Origin: Haloplanus salinarum
GTDB lineage: Archaea > Halobacteriota > Halobacteria > Halobacteriales > Haloferacaceae
Length of the DNA: 64,000 bases
Direction of reading: 5' to 3'
Assembly: GCF_024498175.1 (NCBI RefSeq)
Contig: NZ_CP101823.1
Span: 3,044,987-3,108,986, forward strand
This document shows, in pieces, positions 41,962-48,082 of this stretch. The translations under genes and the position numbers were made by a program. Under the pieces are notes generated by a model. It saw nothing but the letters and a program-made list of their open reading frames with translations. It was not told the origin of the DNA and did not search any database. Position 1 is the stretch's first letter, and each line of letters starts with the position of its first letter.

Positions 41962-42999
41962 ATGCAGGGGACCTTCGAGGACGGCGTCGTCCGCGTCGGC
42001 GGCGACGCCAGACAGCGGTTCTACGACGCCCGCGGCTACGGGCGGCCGCTCTCGGGCAACCGGATCGAACTCGCGCCCGTCGAAGCCGCCCACCTCCTCT
42101 TTCGGGGCGACCTCGACGCCGTCGTCGACGGCGACGACCGCCTCGACTTCCGGTCCTTCCTCGTCGCCACCGACGCCGCCCTCGCCTTCGTCGTGTACAA
42201 GGACCTGCGCGACCGGGGGTTCTACCTCTCGCCCGCCCGCGACGGCTGGGTCGATCACCCGGATGGCGCCGACTTCGTCGTCTTCCCCCGCGGGAGCGGC
42301 CCCGAGGACGACGCCGTCGCGTACCGGCTTCGCGTCGCCGGCGAGCGCGAGTCCATCCCCGCCGCCAGCCTCGGCGACGTGACCCTCGCCGTCGTCGACG
42401 AGGAGGGAGAGCTCACGTATCTGGAGACGGCGCGGCCGGACGCGGCCGGCGAGGCGGACGGCGGCGAGCGGTACGACCCGCCGACCGGCCTCGACGCCGC
42501 CCTCCTCGCCGACCGGGCGGTGGTGTGGGAGCCGCCCGAGGCGCTCCACGACCGGGGGTTCTACGGCCAGCGACTCCTCGGACGGAACGCCGAGACGGGA
42601 CCCCTCCAGCTGTCGCTCGTGGAGGCGGCGTACCTCGCTCGCCGCGGCACCCTCGACCTGGCCGAACCCCACGTCGTCGAGCGCGGCCGGGCCGTCGAGG
42701 GCGAGCGGTTCGACCGCCGGCTCCGCGCCTACGCGGCGCTCCGGGCGGCGGGGAGCGTCCCGAAGAGCGGGTTCAAGTTCGGCGCCGACTTCCGCACCTA
42801 CGACGCCTTCACCACCGTCGAGGAGATGGACCACTCGGCGCGTTTGATCCGCGTCGTCGCGCCCGATCACACCTTCCTGCCCCGCGACCTCTCGCTCGAC
42901 GTCCGGCTCGCCGGTGGGGTCCGGAAGCGAATGGTTTTTGCGCTGACCGACGTGAACGAGGGGATAGACTGGCTCTCCGTCGCCCGACTCACGCCCTAA
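41962..42999 (+). CDS. endA: tRNA-splicing endonuclease
   Basis: A 345-residue archaeal splicing endonuclease made of two repeated units, the large form typical of Euryarchaeota. Each half has the family core (NRIELAPVEAAHLLFRGDLDA, and later GPLQLSLVEAAYLARRGTLDL). The C-terminal half carries the catalytic tyrosine, histidine and lysine region (GFKFGADFRTYDAF, then MDHSARLIRVV). It cuts bulge-helix-bulge motifs in intron-bearing tRNAs and in the 16S and 23S rRNA precursor stems, which are also seen in this window. trpS follows after 1 bp; tRNA-Trp is the classic intron-bearing tRNA of haloarchaea. Confidence 0.93.
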   Translation: MQGTFEDGVVRVGGDARQRFYDARGYGRPLSGNRIELAPVEAAHLLFRGDLDAVVDGDDRLDFRSFLVATDAALAFVVYKDLRDRGFYLSPARDGWVDHPDGADFVVFPRGSGPEDDAVAYRLRVAGERESIPAASLGDVTLAVVDEEGELTYLETARPDAAGEADGGERYDPPTGLDAALLADRAVVWEPPEALHDRGFYGQRLLGRNAETGPLQLSLVEAAYLARRGTLDLAEPHVVERGRAVEGERFDRRLRAYAALRAAGSVPKSGFKFGADFRTYDAFTTVEEMDHSARLIRVVAPDHTFLPRDLSLDVRLAGGVRKRMVFALTDVNEGIDWLSVARLTP

Positions 43000-43000
43000 C

Positions 43001-44584
43001 ATGACACGAGACAACCCGGAGAACACGGCGGACTCGACTCAGGCGACCGACGGCGGGAGCGACACCGCAAGCGGCGCGGACGACGTGGCGCTCGACCCCT
43101 GGGGCTCCTCCACCGTCTCCGACTACCGCAAGCTGTTCGAGGAGTTCGGCATCGAGGCCTTCGACGAGGTGCTCGGCGAGGTGCCCGAACCCCACTACCT
43201 GATGCGCCGGGGCGTCATCTTCGGCCATCGCGACTACCGCCCCGTGGCCCGGGCGCTCCGCGAGGGCGAGGACGCGGCCGTCCTCTCGGGCTTCATGCCC
43301 ACCGGCGACCCCCACATCGGCCACAAACTCGTCTTCGACGAGATCATCTGGCACCAGGAGCGGGGTGCCGACGCCTACGGCCTGATCGCCGACCTCGAGG
43401 CCCACAGCGCCCGCGGCCTCTCGTGGGACGAGATCGACGAACACGCCCGCGACTACCTGCTCTCCCTGCTCGCGCTCGGCTTCGACCCCGAGGAGGGCGA
43501 ACTCTACCGGCAGTCGACCAACCGCGAGGTGCAGGACCTCGCGTTCGAACTCGGATCGAACGCTCGCTTCGCGGAGTTCGAGGGCATCTACGGCTTCGAC
43601 GGCGAGACCTCCGTCTCCCACATGCAGTCGGTGGTCACGCAGATGGCGGACATCCTCTACCCCCAGTTGGAGGAGCCGAAGCCGACGGTCATCCCCGTCG
43701 GGCCGGACCAGGACCCACACATGCGCCTCGCGCGGGACGTGGCCGCCCGGATGCGCTACTTCAAGGTGACCGAGGCGTACGCCTCCTTCGAGGCCGACGC
43801 CGGCGAGCGCGACCACCTGGCGGCGGCGTACGCCGCTCTGTCCGACGATTCGGACGCCCCCGTGCGCTGTGTGGACGCCGCCGACTGGCTCGACGCCGAG
43901 ATGGCGCCCGACGCCGACCGCGACGCCGCCATCGAGAAACTCCGGGAGGCCGGCAAGGAACCGCTCCGCCCCCGCGTTCGCTTCCTCGACCGCAACGCCA
44001 CCGACGCGGCCTTCGACGCCCTGATCGAGGCGGTGCCGGGCGAGAAGCGCCGCTACGACGAACACGTCGACGCCTTCGACATGGACCGCGCGGCCGCCGA
44101 GGAACTGGCCCGCGAGGTGGAGGTCGACCACGGCGGCTTCGGTTTCCTGCCGCCCTCATCCATCTACCACCGGTTCATGACCGGGCTGACCGGCGGGAAG
44201 ATGTCGTCGTCGGTACCCGCCTCCCACATCTCCCTGCTCGACGACCCCGAGGACGGCTACGACAAGGTGAAGGCGGCGACGACGGGCGGCCGGGAGACGG
44301 CCGAAAAGCAGCGCGAACTCGGCGGCGAGGCCGACGAGTGTCCCGTCTACGAACTGTACGCCTACCTGCTCGCGGGCGACGACGACGAGTTCGCGACCGA
44401 GGTGTACGAGGAGTGTGTCGGCGGCGAGCGGCTTTGTGGCGGCTGCAAGGAGCAGGCCGCCGAACTCATGCGCGAGTTCCTCGAAGACCACCAGGAGAAA
44501 CGCGCGGAGGTTGCGGACCTGCTCGACGACCTGGATATCGACCTCGACGCCGACCGTCGCGGCGTGCCCGGCGACGGCCACTGA
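43001..44584 (+). CDS. trpS: Tryptophan--tRNA ligase
   Basis: A 527-residue class I aminoacyl-tRNA synthetase. The HIGH motif reads PHIGHK in SGFMPTGDPHIGHKLVFDEI, and the second signature is KMSSS in TGGKMSSSVPASHI. The N-terminal 35 residues are an acidic extension, and an inserted segment of about 70 residues (DAGERDHLAAAYAALSDDSD onwards) is a haloarchaeal feature of the central region. It is co-transcribed with endA, which matures intron-bearing tRNA-Trp, so the pair couples splicing and charging. Confidence 0.94.
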   Translation: MTRDNPENTADSTQATDGGSDTASGADDVALDPWGSSTVSDYRKLFEEFGIEAFDEVLGEVPEPHYLMRRGVIFGHRDYRPVARALREGEDAAVLSGFMPTGDPHIGHKLVFDEIIWHQERGADAYGLIADLEAHSARGLSWDEIDEHARDYLLSLLALGFDPEEGELYRQSTNREVQDLAFELGSNARFAEFEGIYGFDGETSVSHMQSVVTQMADILYPQLEEPKPTVIPVGPDQDPHMRLARDVAARMRYFKVTEAYASFEADAGERDHLAAAYAALSDDSDAPVRCVDAADWLDAEMAPDADRDAAIEKLREAGKEPLRPRVRFLDRNATDAAFDALIEAVPGEKRRYDEHVDAFDMDRAAAEELAREVEVDHGGFGFLPPSSIYHRFMTGLTGGKMSSSVPASHISLLDDPEDGYDKVKAATTGGRETAEKQRELGGEADECPVYELYAYLLAGDDDEFATEVYEECVGGERLCGGCKEQAAELMREFLEDHQEKRAEVADLLDDLDIDLDADRRGVPGDGH

Positions 44585-44637
44585 CCGGCGCCCCGGCTTG
44601 CAGAACGCTTTTGCCCCACGGCCCGAATCGAACGGGT

Positions 44638-44718
44638 ATGGCGACCGAACCCGCCACGACCGACACGCTCGCCCGCGAAGCGACCGCGTCCGGGTTCGGC
44701 TTCTTTTTCGCCCTCTGA
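44638..44718 (+). CDS. Phe-rich leader peptide upstream of pheST
   Basis: An ATG at 44638 opens a 26-residue frame, too short for most gene finders, whose last seven residues are F-G-F-F-F-A-L (codons TTC GGC TTC TTT TTC GCC CTC TGA). It lies 107 bp before pheS, the gene for the enzyme that charges tRNA-Phe. A TATA-like GCTTTTGCC lies about 30 bp upstream. A run of the cognate amino acid just before the stop of a leader peptide is the hallmark of ribosome-mediated attenuation in bacteria. Chance cannot be excluded, but four Phe in five codons next to pheS in GC-rich DNA is very unlikely. Confidence 0.7.
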   Translation: MATEPATTDTLAREATASGFGFFFAL

Positions 44719-44728
44719 GACGGTGGCC

Positions 44729-44777
44729 GGCGGACTCCGCCCGCGGCGGGCGGACGAAATCGGCCCGCTCGGCGGGC
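44729..44777 (+). promoter_or_regulatory. Alternating hairpins between the Phe leader and pheS
   Basis: Just after the leader stop, TCCGCCCG (44736-44743) pairs with CGGGCGGA (44747-44754), and GCCCGC (44763-44768) pairs with GCGGGC (44772-44777). Competing pairings exist: GGCGG (44729-44733) with CCGCC (44737-44741), and the GCGGGC within 44746-44752 with GCCCGC (44763-44768). A ribosome stalled at the Phe codons would favour one set. There is no U-run after either hairpin, so the switch may act on translation or read-through rather than as a classical terminator. Confidence 0.55.
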
Positions 44778-44825
44778 AACGCTTCGGAACCCCTAACTGA
44801 CCGGCTCGGATGCACGTGAACAAGA

Positions 44826-46370
44826 ATGCGACTCCCGGACTCACAGGTCGCGGTGTTGGAAGCCGCGAGCGCGACGGAGGAACTGACGATCGAACGGTTG
44901 AGCGAGGAGACGGGGCTGAAACCGGAGACGGTGACCGGCGCCGCCTTCGACCTCGAGGATGCGGGACTGGTCGCGGTGTCGACCGCCGAAACCGTCTCCC
45001 ACGAGGTGTCCGACGAGGGCGAGACGTACGCCGAGGCCGGCCTCCCCGAGGTCCGCCTCTACCGCGCCGCGCTCTCGGCCGGGGCCGACGACGCCGCCGT
45101 CTCGCTCGGCGAGGTCATCGGCGCGGCGGACCTCGACGGCCCCGAGGTGGACATCGCCCTCGCCAACTACGCCCGCAAGGGGTACGGCGACGTCGACTCG
45201 GGCGAGATCACGGCCGACCCGGACGCCGACCCTGACGCCGACCCGGAGGCGACGGCGCTCGCGTCGCTCGTCGATGGCGAGGAGCCACGCTCCTCGGGAA
45301 GCCGGCCGCAGGCCGGCGAGTCGGTCGAGGCGTCCGATGCGCTCGATCAACTCGTCCGGCGCGGACTCGTCGACCGGCGGGAGCGGGCCGTCCGCTCGGT
45401 CGTCCTCACCGACGAGGGCGTGACCGCGCTGATGGAGGGCGTCGAGGCGGCCGAGACGGTCGACCGCCTCACCCCCGAGATGCTCGCCTCCGGCGAGTGG
45501 CGCGACGCCGAGTTCGCCGACTACAACGTCGAGGCCGACGCCCCCGCGGAGCGTGGCGGCAAGGTCCACATCCTCCGACAGACCGCCGAGCGCGTGAAGG
45601 ACACCCTCGTCGGGATGGGCTTCCGGGAGATGGACGGTCCCCACGCCGACGCGGAGTTCTGGATCAACGACTGTCTGTTCATGCCACAGGACCACCCGGC
45701 GCGCACCCACTGGGACCAGTTCGCGCTCGACGTGCCGCCGATGCGGGACATCCCCGAGGACCTGCTGGATCGCGTCCGCTCGGCCCACCTCGAGGGCGTC
45801 GGCGACGACGGGCAGGGGTACCACTCCCCGTGGACCGAGGAGGTCGCCCGCGAGGTCGACCTCCGGGGTCACACCACCTCGCTGTCCATGCGCTATCTCT
45901 CGGGCAACGAGATCGGCGACCTCGAACCTCCGGAGCGCTTCTTCAGCGTCGAGAAGGTGTATCGCAACGACACGCTCGATCCGACCCACCTGCTCGAGTT
46001 CTTCCAGATCGAGGGCTGGGTGATGGCCGAGGACCTCTCGGTGCGGGACCTGATGGGCACCTTCGAGGAGTTCTACCAGCAGTTCGGGATCACCGACCTG
46101 CAGTTCAAGCCACATTACAACCCCTACACCGAGCCGTCCTTCGAACTGTTCGGCACCCACCCCGAGACCGGGGAGCTCATCGAGATCGGCAACAGCGGGA
46201 TGTTCCGCGAGGAGGTCCTCCGGCCTCTCGGCGTCGAGTGTGACGTGATGGCCTGGGGACTGGCGCTCGAACGACTCCTGATGCTCATGTACGGCTTCGA
46301 CGACATCCGCGACGTCCACGGGACGCTCTGTGACCTCGACCTCCTGCGGAACACGGAGGTGTTGCACTGA
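44826..46370 (+). CDS. pheS: Phenylalanine--tRNA ligase, alpha subunit
   Basis: A 514-residue class II synthetase subunit. The N-terminal 100 residues are a winged-helix (EELTIERLSEETGLKPETVTG) typical of archaeal and eukaryotic PheS. The catalytic core has motif 2 around RFFSVEKVYRNDTLDPTH and motif 3 in VMAWGLALERLLMLMYG. A hairpin-coding insert at 45278-45317 adds a Ser/Gly/Pro-rich loop between the N-terminal region and core. Its stop shares one base with the pheT start (TGATG). Expression is probably controlled by the Phe-rich leader upstream. Confidence 0.96.
   Translation: MRLPDSQVAVLEAASATEELTIERLSEETGLKPETVTGAAFDLEDAGLVAVSTAETVSHEVSDEGETYAEAGLPEVRLYRAALSAGADDAAVSLGEVIGAADLDGPEVDIALANYARKGYGDVDSGEITADPDADPDADPEATALASLVDGEEPRSSGSRPQAGESVEASDALDQLVRRGLVDRRERAVRSVVLTDEGVTALMEGVEAAETVDRLTPEMLASGEWRDAEFADYNVEADAPAERGGKVHILRQTAERVKDTLVGMGFREMDGPHADAEFWINDCLFMPQDHPARTHWDQFALDVPPMRDIPEDLLDRVRSAHLEGVGDDGQGYHSPWTEEVAREVDLRGHTTSLSMRYLSGNEIGDLEPPERFFSVEKVYRNDTLDPTHLLEFFQIEGWVMAEDLSVRDLMGTFEEFYQQFGITDLQFKPHYNPYTEPSFELFGTHPETGELIEIGNSGMFREEVLRPLGVECDVMAWGLALERLLMLMYGFDDIRDVHGTLCDLDLLRNTEVLH
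45278..45317 (+). repeat. Double-hairpin insert inside pheS
   Basis: CGAGGAGC (45278-45285) pairs with GCTCCTCG (45289-45296), and GCCGGCC (45301-45307) pairs with GGCCGGC (45311-45317). Read in frame it gives EEPRSSGSRPQAGE, a low-complexity loop unlike the surrounding sequence. It looks like a palindromic element inserted without breaking the frame. Confidence 0.55.
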
Positions 46371-48082
46371 TGCCGGTCGTCGACGTCGACCCCGACGAAC
46401 TCCGGCAGCTGACGGGTCACGACGAGAAGAGCGACGAGGCGCTCAAGGAGGACCTGTTCGCCCTCGGACTGGAGTTCGAGGGCGAGACGGAGGACGGAAA
46501 GCTCCAACTGGAGTTCGGCCCCGACCGCCTCGACCGCCTCTCCGTCGAGGGGGTCGCCCGCTCGCTGCGCTACCAGTACGGCGACGACCGCGGCGTCTAC
46601 GTCCCGAACACGAACGACCCCGACTGGACGATCGTCGTAGACGACTCGACGCCCGACGAGCGCCCCTACGTCACGGGCGCGGTGATCCGCGGCGTCGACC
46701 TGGACGACGACGCCCTCGACTCCCTGATCCAGCTCCAGGAGAAGCTCCACGCGACGATGGGTCGCAAGCGCGCCAAGGGCGCCATCGGCATCCACGACCT
46801 GACGATGCTGAAAGGCGCGGCCCACGGCGAAGACGGCGGCAACTCCATCACCTACCGCGGGGTCGCCCCCGATGGCGACCGGTTCGTCCCCCTCGATTCC
46901 GACCGGGAGATGACCCCGGCCGACGTCCTCGAGGACCACCCCACCGGCGAGACCTACGCCTCGCTGGTCGAGGAGTACGACCGCTATCCGGCGATCTACG
47001 ACGATATCGGCCTGTTCTCGTTCCCGCCGGTGATCAACGGCCGCCGGACCGAGGTGTCCACCGACTCCCGCGAGCTGTTCGTCGAGCTCACGGGGACCGA
47101 CCAGTGGACCATCGACCGGATGTGCAACGTCATCTGCTACGCGCTCGACGCGCGCGGTGCGACCGTCGAGGAGGTCGAGGTCGAGTACGCCGACGGCCGG
47201 CTGGTCCGCCCGGACTTCGAGGTGGACGAAAAGACCGTCGCCCACGAGCGCATCGAGGGGATGCTCGGCGTCGACCTCTCGGTCGAGGAGACGGTCGACC
47301 TGTTCGAGCGCTCGGGGCTCGGCGCCGAGCCGTCGGACGCCGACGCGGGCGTCACCTACGAGGTGTCGATCCCGCCGTACCGCACGGACGTCCTCCACCC
47401 GCTCGACCTGATCGACGACGTGGGGCGGGCCTACGGGTTCAACGACCTCGATCCCACCTATCCCGACGTCGCGACCGTCGGCGGTCGACACGAGCGCTCG
47501 GTCCACGAGGCTGCGGTCCGCACCTCGCTCGTCGGCCTGGGCTTCGAGGACCTGCTCAACTTCCATATGATCTCCGAGGCCGAGAACTACGACCGGATGG
47601 GCGTCGACTCCGGGACCGACGTCGTCGGCGGGGGCGAGCCGGTCACCATCACCGAGCCGTACAGCGAGGACTACACGATGCTCCGGACGTGGGCGCTCCC
47701 CTCCCTACTGATGGTCCTCGAGAACAACACCCACCGGGCCTACCCGCAGGACCTCGCGGAGGTCGGGCTGGCCGCCGTCGCCGACGACGGCGAGAACACC
47801 GGCGTCGCCGAGCGTCGTACCGTCGCGGGCGTGGTGGCCCGCAACGACGCCACCTACGAGGACGCCAAGGCGCGGCTGGCGGCGCTGTGTCACGACTTCG
47901 ACGCCGACCTGTCGACCCCCGCGACGACCCATCCGACGTTCATCGACGGCCGCGCGGCCGAGGTAGTGATCGACGGCGAGACCGTCGGCGTGATCGGCGA
48001 GGTACACCCGCGCGTGCTCGTCGAACACGACTTGGAGTTGCCCGTGGCGGCCTTCGAGTTCCGGCTGGACGCGCTGGCGTAG
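46370..48082 (+). CDS. pheT: Phenylalanine--tRNA ligase, beta subunit
   Basis: A 570-residue archaeal-type beta subunit, shorter than the bacterial one because the tRNA-binding and anticodon extensions are lacking. It has B3/B4 editing-domain sequences (including TGAVIRGVDLDDDALDSLIQLQEKLH and GRKRAKGAIGIHDL) and B5 (GVDLSVEETVDLFERSGLG) with VSIPPYRTDVLHPLDLIDDV. A C-terminal class II-like domain follows with ENNTHRAYPQDLAEVG. It forms the alpha2-beta2 enzyme with PheS and proofreads mischarged Tyr-tRNA. It is translationally coupled to pheS by TGATG. Confidence 0.96.
   Translation: MPVVDVDPDELRQLTGHDEKSDEALKEDLFALGLEFEGETEDGKLQLEFGPDRLDRLSVEGVARSLRYQYGDDRGVYVPNTNDPDWTIVVDDSTPDERPYVTGAVIRGVDLDDDALDSLIQLQEKLHATMGRKRAKGAIGIHDLTMLKGAAHGEDGGNSITYRGVAPDGDRFVPLDSDREMTPADVLEDHPTGETYASLVEEYDRYPAIYDDIGLFSFPPVINGRRTEVSTDSRELFVELTGTDQWTIDRMCNVICYALDARGATVEEVEVEYADGRLVRPDFEVDEKTVAHERIEGMLGVDLSVEETVDLFERSGLGAEPSDADAGVTYEVSIPPYRTDVLHPLDLIDDVGRAYGFNDLDPTYPDVATVGGRHERSVHEAAVRTSLVGLGFEDLLNFHMISEAENYDRMGVDSGTDVVGGGEPVTITEPYSEDYTMLRTWALPSLLMVLENNTHRAYPQDLAEVGLAAVADDGENTGVAERRTVAGVVARNDATYEDAKARLAALCHDFDADLSTPATTHPTFIDGRAAEVVIDGETVGVIGEVHPRVLVEHDLELPVAAFEFRLDALA

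Follow-up and report, generated by a model that had tools for sequence, protein, structure and literature searches.

A candidate phenylalanine leader-peptide regulator upstream of pheST in Halobacteria

The phenylalanyl-tRNA synthetase genes pheST of Haloplanus salinarum are preceded by a short open reading frame that ends in a Phe-rich core and probably acts as a cis-acting leader-peptide regulator of the two genes. The frame recurs before pheS through most of the class, a hairpin supported by covariation follows its stop codon, and leaders with Trp codons precede accessory trpS genes in many haloarchaea. On balance, we favor the view that Halobacteria own a form of attenuation that arose within the class, in which leaderless, amino-acid-specific leaders stand before tRNA-synthetase genes (Phe before PheRS, Trp before an accessory TrpRS) and, in place of bacterial terminators, a post-stop hairpin would report the stalling of the lead ribosome.

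Gene Context and Sampled Loci

In the window, which is the whole stretch of 64,000 nucleotides that was analyzed, genes assigned by Pfam place trpS upstream of pheS and pheT, and the 241 nt gap between trpS and pheS houses the leader cassette (Table 1). A tRNA splicing endonuclease gene (positions 41962–42999) directly abuts the start of trpS at 43001, which suggests that these two genes form one transcript upstream of the cassette. The comparison drew on 80 named haloarchaeal pheS loci and on others taken from whole genomes at family and order level, altogether 228 pheS upstream regions, of which 209 were distinct. Methanogen outgroups also have trpS beside pheS, with a spacer of at most a few dozen bases and without the leader, which makes the cassette look like a haloarchaeal addition.

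Table 1. Features of the trpS–pheT region, in window positions
Feature	Position	Strand	Evidence
trpS, gene upstream of the leader cassette	43001..44584	+	PF00579, E 1.2e-42
P1, predicted leader promoter: BRE (cagaacg) and TATA-like box (ctttt)	44601..44612	+	Logo of 164 loci
Leader ORF, 26 codons and TGA, product MATEPATTDTLAREATASGFGFFFAL	44638..44718	+	Kept in 165/209 loci; shuffles 1/2090
Putative sensor core, GGG TTC GGC TTC TTT TTC (G-F-G-F-F-F)	44692..44709	+	Codon counts
Conserved hairpin	44725..44765	+	Covariation, 13/14 pairs
Hairpin lower stem	44725–44730/44760–44765	+	Covariation
Hairpin internal loop, GGA opposite GAA	44732–44734/44756–44758	+	Conserved
Hairpin upper stem	44736–44743/44747–44754	+	Covariation
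BRE/TATA-like motif CGGAACCCCTAACTGACC, putative pheS-proximal promoter P2	44785..44802	+	192/209 loci
pheS, phenylalanyl-tRNA synthetase alpha subunit	44826..46370	+	PF01409, E 2.3e-76
pheT, phenylalanyl-tRNA synthetase beta subunit	46370..48082	+	PF17759, E 5.9e-39; PF03484

Conservation of the Leader Frame

A sequence-only reading of this DNA had described a 26-codon frame with a Phe-rich end 107 nt before pheS. The frame is present (ATG GCG ... GGG TTC GGC TTC TTT TTC GCC CTC TGA), and its product ends with the residues G-F-G-F-F-F-A-L. Its conservation in relatives, on which that proposal hinged, extends across the class. A leader with a Phe-rich core occurs in 165 of the 209 distinct haloarchaeal loci and in one of 2090 dinucleotide-preserving shuffles, and a strict form of the search keeps 135 of the 209 loci and none of 1045 shuffles (the loci are related, so these counts overstate the number of independent events). 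The Phe leader frame is real and far beyond chance, and was seen in every family-level group from which loci were read. The leaders span 23–33 codons, mostly 26–28, with the consensus M-A-(S/P/T)-E-(P/S)... GFGFFFA(A/R)-stop. Within 1.18 Mb of the H. salinarum genome, a leaderless-type promoter was found on 186 short ORFs, among which this leader alone has at least four Phe in eight residues; no further clear amino-acid leader was found in the same 1.18 Mb.

The leader was not recognized in 44 of the 209 loci, and the system is therefore dispensable. Some leaders seem to be decaying, with the ATG missing in loci L044 and L083 and the frame extending beyond the usual stop in L026 and L203. Locus L181 has a remnant of the hairpin and no leader.

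Promoter and Transcript of the Leader

The gap-free logo of the leader promoter P1, built from 164 loci, consists of CGNAACG at −37 to −31, a T-rich TATA box at −30 to −26, and a pyrimidine at −1. P1 sits at a single fixed distance from the leader ATG in these loci; because it is locked to the ATG, the mRNA is expected to begin at the leader start codon, at or near 44638, and the P1 transcript is predicted to be leaderless. The conservation of the frame suggests that the leader is translated.

In Haloferax volcanii, a start site from differential RNA-seq gives pheS (HVO_2948) a leader of 150–250 nt that contains a uORF of 26 amino acids with a pI of 5.9, and the tabulated entry lists no second start site (PMC4983044, Table 2). 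Haloferax relatives have leaders of 26 amino acids, some with a pI of 5.94, and the listed mass of the H. volcanii uORF, known here from its table entry, is 2772 compared with 2792 in the nearest relative, a difference of 20. The HVO_2948 uORF is very probably the orthologue of this leader. A transcript over the leader, which the earlier proposal needs, is indicated for H. volcanii by the tabulated start site (PMC4983044).

Coding Constraint and Codon Use

Across the three codon positions that follow the first Phe-Gly, there are 364 TTN codons (246 TTC, 117 TTT, and 1 TTG), such that Phe is retained in 363 of the 364 while the third base varies. TTT makes up 32% of these core codons and 5.7% of those in the pheS genes, an approximately sixfold excess (Fisher P 2e-38, with the relatedness of loci ignored). 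The pN/pS ratio over the first 15 leader codons is 0.90–1.12 in all but one of four groups, the exception having 0.52, and over the final nine codons it is 0–0.73. Purifying selection over the whole frame, as expected of a stand-alone small protein, was not found, and the profile, with a drifting N-terminal half and a constrained C-terminal end, is that of a leader peptide and not of a functional small protein. A stand-alone leaderless gene for a small functional protein, located before pheS by chance, would account for the leaderless promoter with its ATG and for a C-terminus conserved at the protein level, and such proteins are described as common in haloarchaea (PMC4983044). It is nevertheless very unlikely, given the near-neutral pN/pS of the N-terminal half in most groups, a hairpin that is locked to the leader stop codon, and a composition that fits the downstream enzyme in a design that recurs with Trp before TrpRS.

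The Gly codons of the core are conserved as well, the first mostly as GGG or GGA and the second as GG-any, and the stop codon mostly lies 1–3 codons past the core. This counts against plain Phe sensing, which needs no Gly, and is a point in favor of an arrest peptide, in which the nascent GFGFFF chain itself and not tRNA charging would pause the ribosome in response to free phenylalanine or another cue, as in TnaC. The constraint on the C-terminus at the protein level would also suit an arrest peptide, but in many genera a single position of the core may hold L, V, S, P, or D instead, and we regard this explanation, in view also of the Trp leaders discussed below, as unlikely.

Runs of at least five T occur in 89 of the 165 leaders. 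According to another reading, the U-rich Phe codons (UUCUUUUUC) are an archaeal U-tract that acts as a terminator or pause site in the trpS–pheS gap, where the peptide would be a by-product or translation would only modulate the terminator. Archaeal termination is reported to employ U-tracts (PMC8716108), and the sixfold excess of TTT over pheS points in the same direction, but 36 of the 165 leaders have no run above two T and another 26 have at most three, what is kept is Phe identity and not U content, and conservation extends to the frame, the stop, and the hairpin; we consider this role decidedly unlikely. The raised share of TTT in the core, at 44701–44709 here and likewise in relatives, may reflect slow decoding or a U-tract role.

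Hairpin Downstream of the Leader Stop

Two strong hairpins had been proposed to follow the leader. The first is upheld by covariation, whereas the second (GCCCGC-TCG-GCGGGC, approximately 44764–44778) is not retained among congeners. In an alignment of 46 sequences, 13 of the 14 pairs of the first hairpin have changed on both sides, and 89.1% of its cells are paired, whereas shuffling leaves 62.0% and sliding no more than 50.7%; the rows were partly picked by lower-stem pairing and the lower-stem figure is therefore inflated. In the upper stem, which was unused in picking the rows, all eight pairs have changed on both sides and 85.8% of the cells are paired. The symmetrical GGA/GAA loop between the stems probably forms tandem G-A pairs. 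The GGA lies 4–15 nt past the leader stop, and a ribosome standing on the leader stop codon could reach the RNA structure.

A covariance model of the hairpin (R1) has a single match in the genome, at pheS (E 3e-6), with the next candidate at E 0.48; no other convincing copy was found in the genome with this model. Under stricter filters, R1 missed its own locus in a search of 100 genomes of the phylum, and absence in that search is uninformative. The folding energy of positions 44638–44825 by itself is ordinary (z −0.24), so the claim of structure rests on comparison and not on energy. An argument for structure from stability was rejected on the same value.

Alternative Pairings and the Output Step

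When the strands of the lower stem were paired with those of mismatched loci, own-locus pairing stood out with z −8.3, whereas every alternative pairing examined in this cross-locus test gave z −1.1 to +3.3, and the competing pairings proposed in the sequence-only reading are not supported. As candidates for a mutually exclusive switch, pairings of the leader with the motif before pheS, of the leader with the hairpin strands, and of the hairpin 5′ strand with the motif were discarded, as none had an own-locus excess, and the test found no exclusive antiterminator/terminator pairings above mismatched loci. The same reading had remarked on the missing U-run, and indeed the longest T-run between the leader stop and pheS is at most three in 165 of 165 loci, which excludes a bacterial intrinsic terminator. 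No anatomical correlate of the output step was found, as there is neither a covarying alternative pairing nor a U-run of at least four. An Rfam search of the window stretch and four relatives found no T-box, riboswitch, or other family above chance.

Translational control, in which the hairpin or translation of the leader gates initiation at pheS, was raised by the earlier reading and agrees with the lack of a U-run terminator. Sequestering of the pheS start is not favored, as the distance from the hairpin to pheS is variable and a promoter-like motif lies between them. The leader stop is 37–347 nt from pheS (median 135, 165 loci), which disfavors termination–reinitiation, since this coupling is little or absent above 30 nt in H. 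volcanii (PMC12548453). The cross-locus test detected no covarying partner in the stretch ahead of pheS, and transcripts from P2 would escape such control, which altogether appears improbable.

The motif before pheS has the consensus CGGAACCG(C/T)TAACTGACC in 192 of the 209 loci, with the same BRE-to-TATA register as P1. Its TATA-like part ends 24–82 nt before the pheS ATG, most commonly at approximately 30 nt, and its sole perfect match in this genome is at pheS. The motif persists in loci without the leader and where pheS is detached from trpS and stands beside other genes, on which grounds it was rejected as a part of the leader switch. It is quite likely a second core promoter, P2, a reading weakened by the H. 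volcanii table, whose entry has no second start site (PMC4983044), and by conservation that continues beyond the TATA box. The conserved sequence after the box is TGAC, and its conservation is unusual.

Tryptophan Leaders of Accessory trpS Genes

The H. volcanii table also lists a uORF of 23 amino acids before HVO_A0127, a tryptophan-tRNA ligase (PMC4983044). Trp leaders were found before the accessory trpS in four of four Haloferax genomes (e.g., MVSTSRATCWRWRSTWEVDSIAV), and, across the order, accessory trpS genes are preceded by a W-x-W or WW frame in 19 of 23 readable loci (L316 being doubtful), such as MQSALRTWRWQTPGERTVS and MTTALEWQWRWGWQPSSRADSIVAAADAA. Among the named plasmids, the Trp leader is present in those of Haloferax mediterranei and Natronorubrum aibiense and was not found in those of Natrinema zhouii and Haloprofundus sp. 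MHR1. The Trp leaders, with a WRW core, lie approximately 160–185 nt before the accessory trpS, and many have a leaderless-type promoter (L254–L257, L314–L342). At many loci, they are followed on the 3′ side by a GC-rich inverted repeat with a T-rich stretch behind it, a layout unlike that of the pheS hairpin; the conserved G(C/T)GCTC(A/C)CTC–T-rich stretch after the Trp leaders could be a terminator. The Trp codons of the Haloferax leaders are flanked by CCACTTCC/GGAAGTGG.

Control genes had no leaders beyond background (pheA 0/30, trpD 1/30). Amino-acid sensing is argued for most strongly by two unrelated leaders in which the residue matches the enzyme. The arrest-peptide explanation is at odds with a sensed residue that fits the enzyme twice (Phe with PheRS, Trp with TrpRS) and with a Trp leader that has no similar peptide context.

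Proposed Mechanism

The idea of a bacterial-style sensor of charged tRNA-Phe survives in its class-wide Phe leader, its post-stop hairpin, and its Trp analogue, and fails in its exclusive-pairing switch. The sensor part of the system is very likely, whereas for the output part, where factor-dependent termination is preferred, the chances seem about even. We infer ribosome stalling, the way in which expression responds, and the output as follows. Transcription from P1 would yield an mRNA beginning at the leader AUG, on whose 5′ end ribosomes would load, trail RNA polymerase, and read GFGFFF. With plentiful Phe-tRNA, the ribosome would reach the stop codon and mask the 5′ half of the hairpin, which starts only a few nt away; with Phe-tRNA in short supply, it would stall at the Phe codons, 2–5 codons earlier, and the hairpin would fold behind the polymerase. 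What becomes of the P1 transcript upstream of pheS may then depend on the state of the hairpin. The likeliest output would be a choice between elongation and factor-dependent (FttA/aCPSF1-type) termination of untranslated RNA, preferred here because archaeal polarity is attributed to FttA (PMC12548453), or else an effect on RNA stability. A fall in charged tRNA-Phe would thereby raise pheST expression, while P2 may provide basal, leader-independent expression of pheS.

Comparison With Known Systems

To our knowledge, ribosome-mediated leader-peptide control has no demonstrated case in Archaea, and such supply sensors are experimentally known from bacteria only; none was reported for Archaea in the searchable literature. 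Since the candidate sensor is conserved through most of the class, including the genetically tractable Haloferax, the long-open question of whether archaeal transcription–translation coupling carries regulatory information becomes directly testable. The T-box leaders of Firmicutes are alike in that synthetase genes respond to how far their cognate tRNA is charged. Unlike the leader proposed here, they recognize the tRNA by direct binding and involve no translation, and no Rfam T-box match was found at this locus.

The H. volcanii uORF before HVO_2948 precedes the same gene, has 26 residues, and shares its pI of 5.9 with related Haloferax leaders (PMC4983044, Table 2). It stands there as a table entry, and the table and text consulted are silent on its Phe residues, on a hairpin, on conservation through the class, and on a regulatory role. 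The uORF was already on record as a line of that table; in the part of the literature that was searched, nothing was found on its nature as a Phe sensor, on the hairpin, on how widely the class conserves it, or on the Trp counterpart.

Bacterial ribosome-mediated attenuators of tRNA-synthetase genes include E. coli pheM-pheST and Streptomyces trpS and leuS (PMC5371410; PMC1262725). E. coli pheM-pheST is closest to the present case, with a short Phe-rich leader directly before the same genes and an RNA structure by its end (PMC5371410; PMC1262725). Repeated codons for the cognate amino acid, which characterize the leaders of the bacterial attenuators, likewise occur here, in 165 of the 209 loci. 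The haloarchaeal system would operate in the manner of pheM-pheST attenuation, but two defining features of these attenuators, the alternative pairings and the terminator, fail, and it is for this reason not filed among them. It differs from E. coli pheM-pheST in belonging to Archaea, in the predicted leaderless mRNA of its leader, and in having no intrinsic terminator or U-run and no detectable alternative pairing; in turn, it has a GGA/GAA hairpin past the stop and, ahead of pheS, another promoter-like element. The lack of a terminator suggests that the output is of another kind, which may be factor-dependent termination, and the Phe and Trp cases, if true, would show that attenuation was invented convergently.
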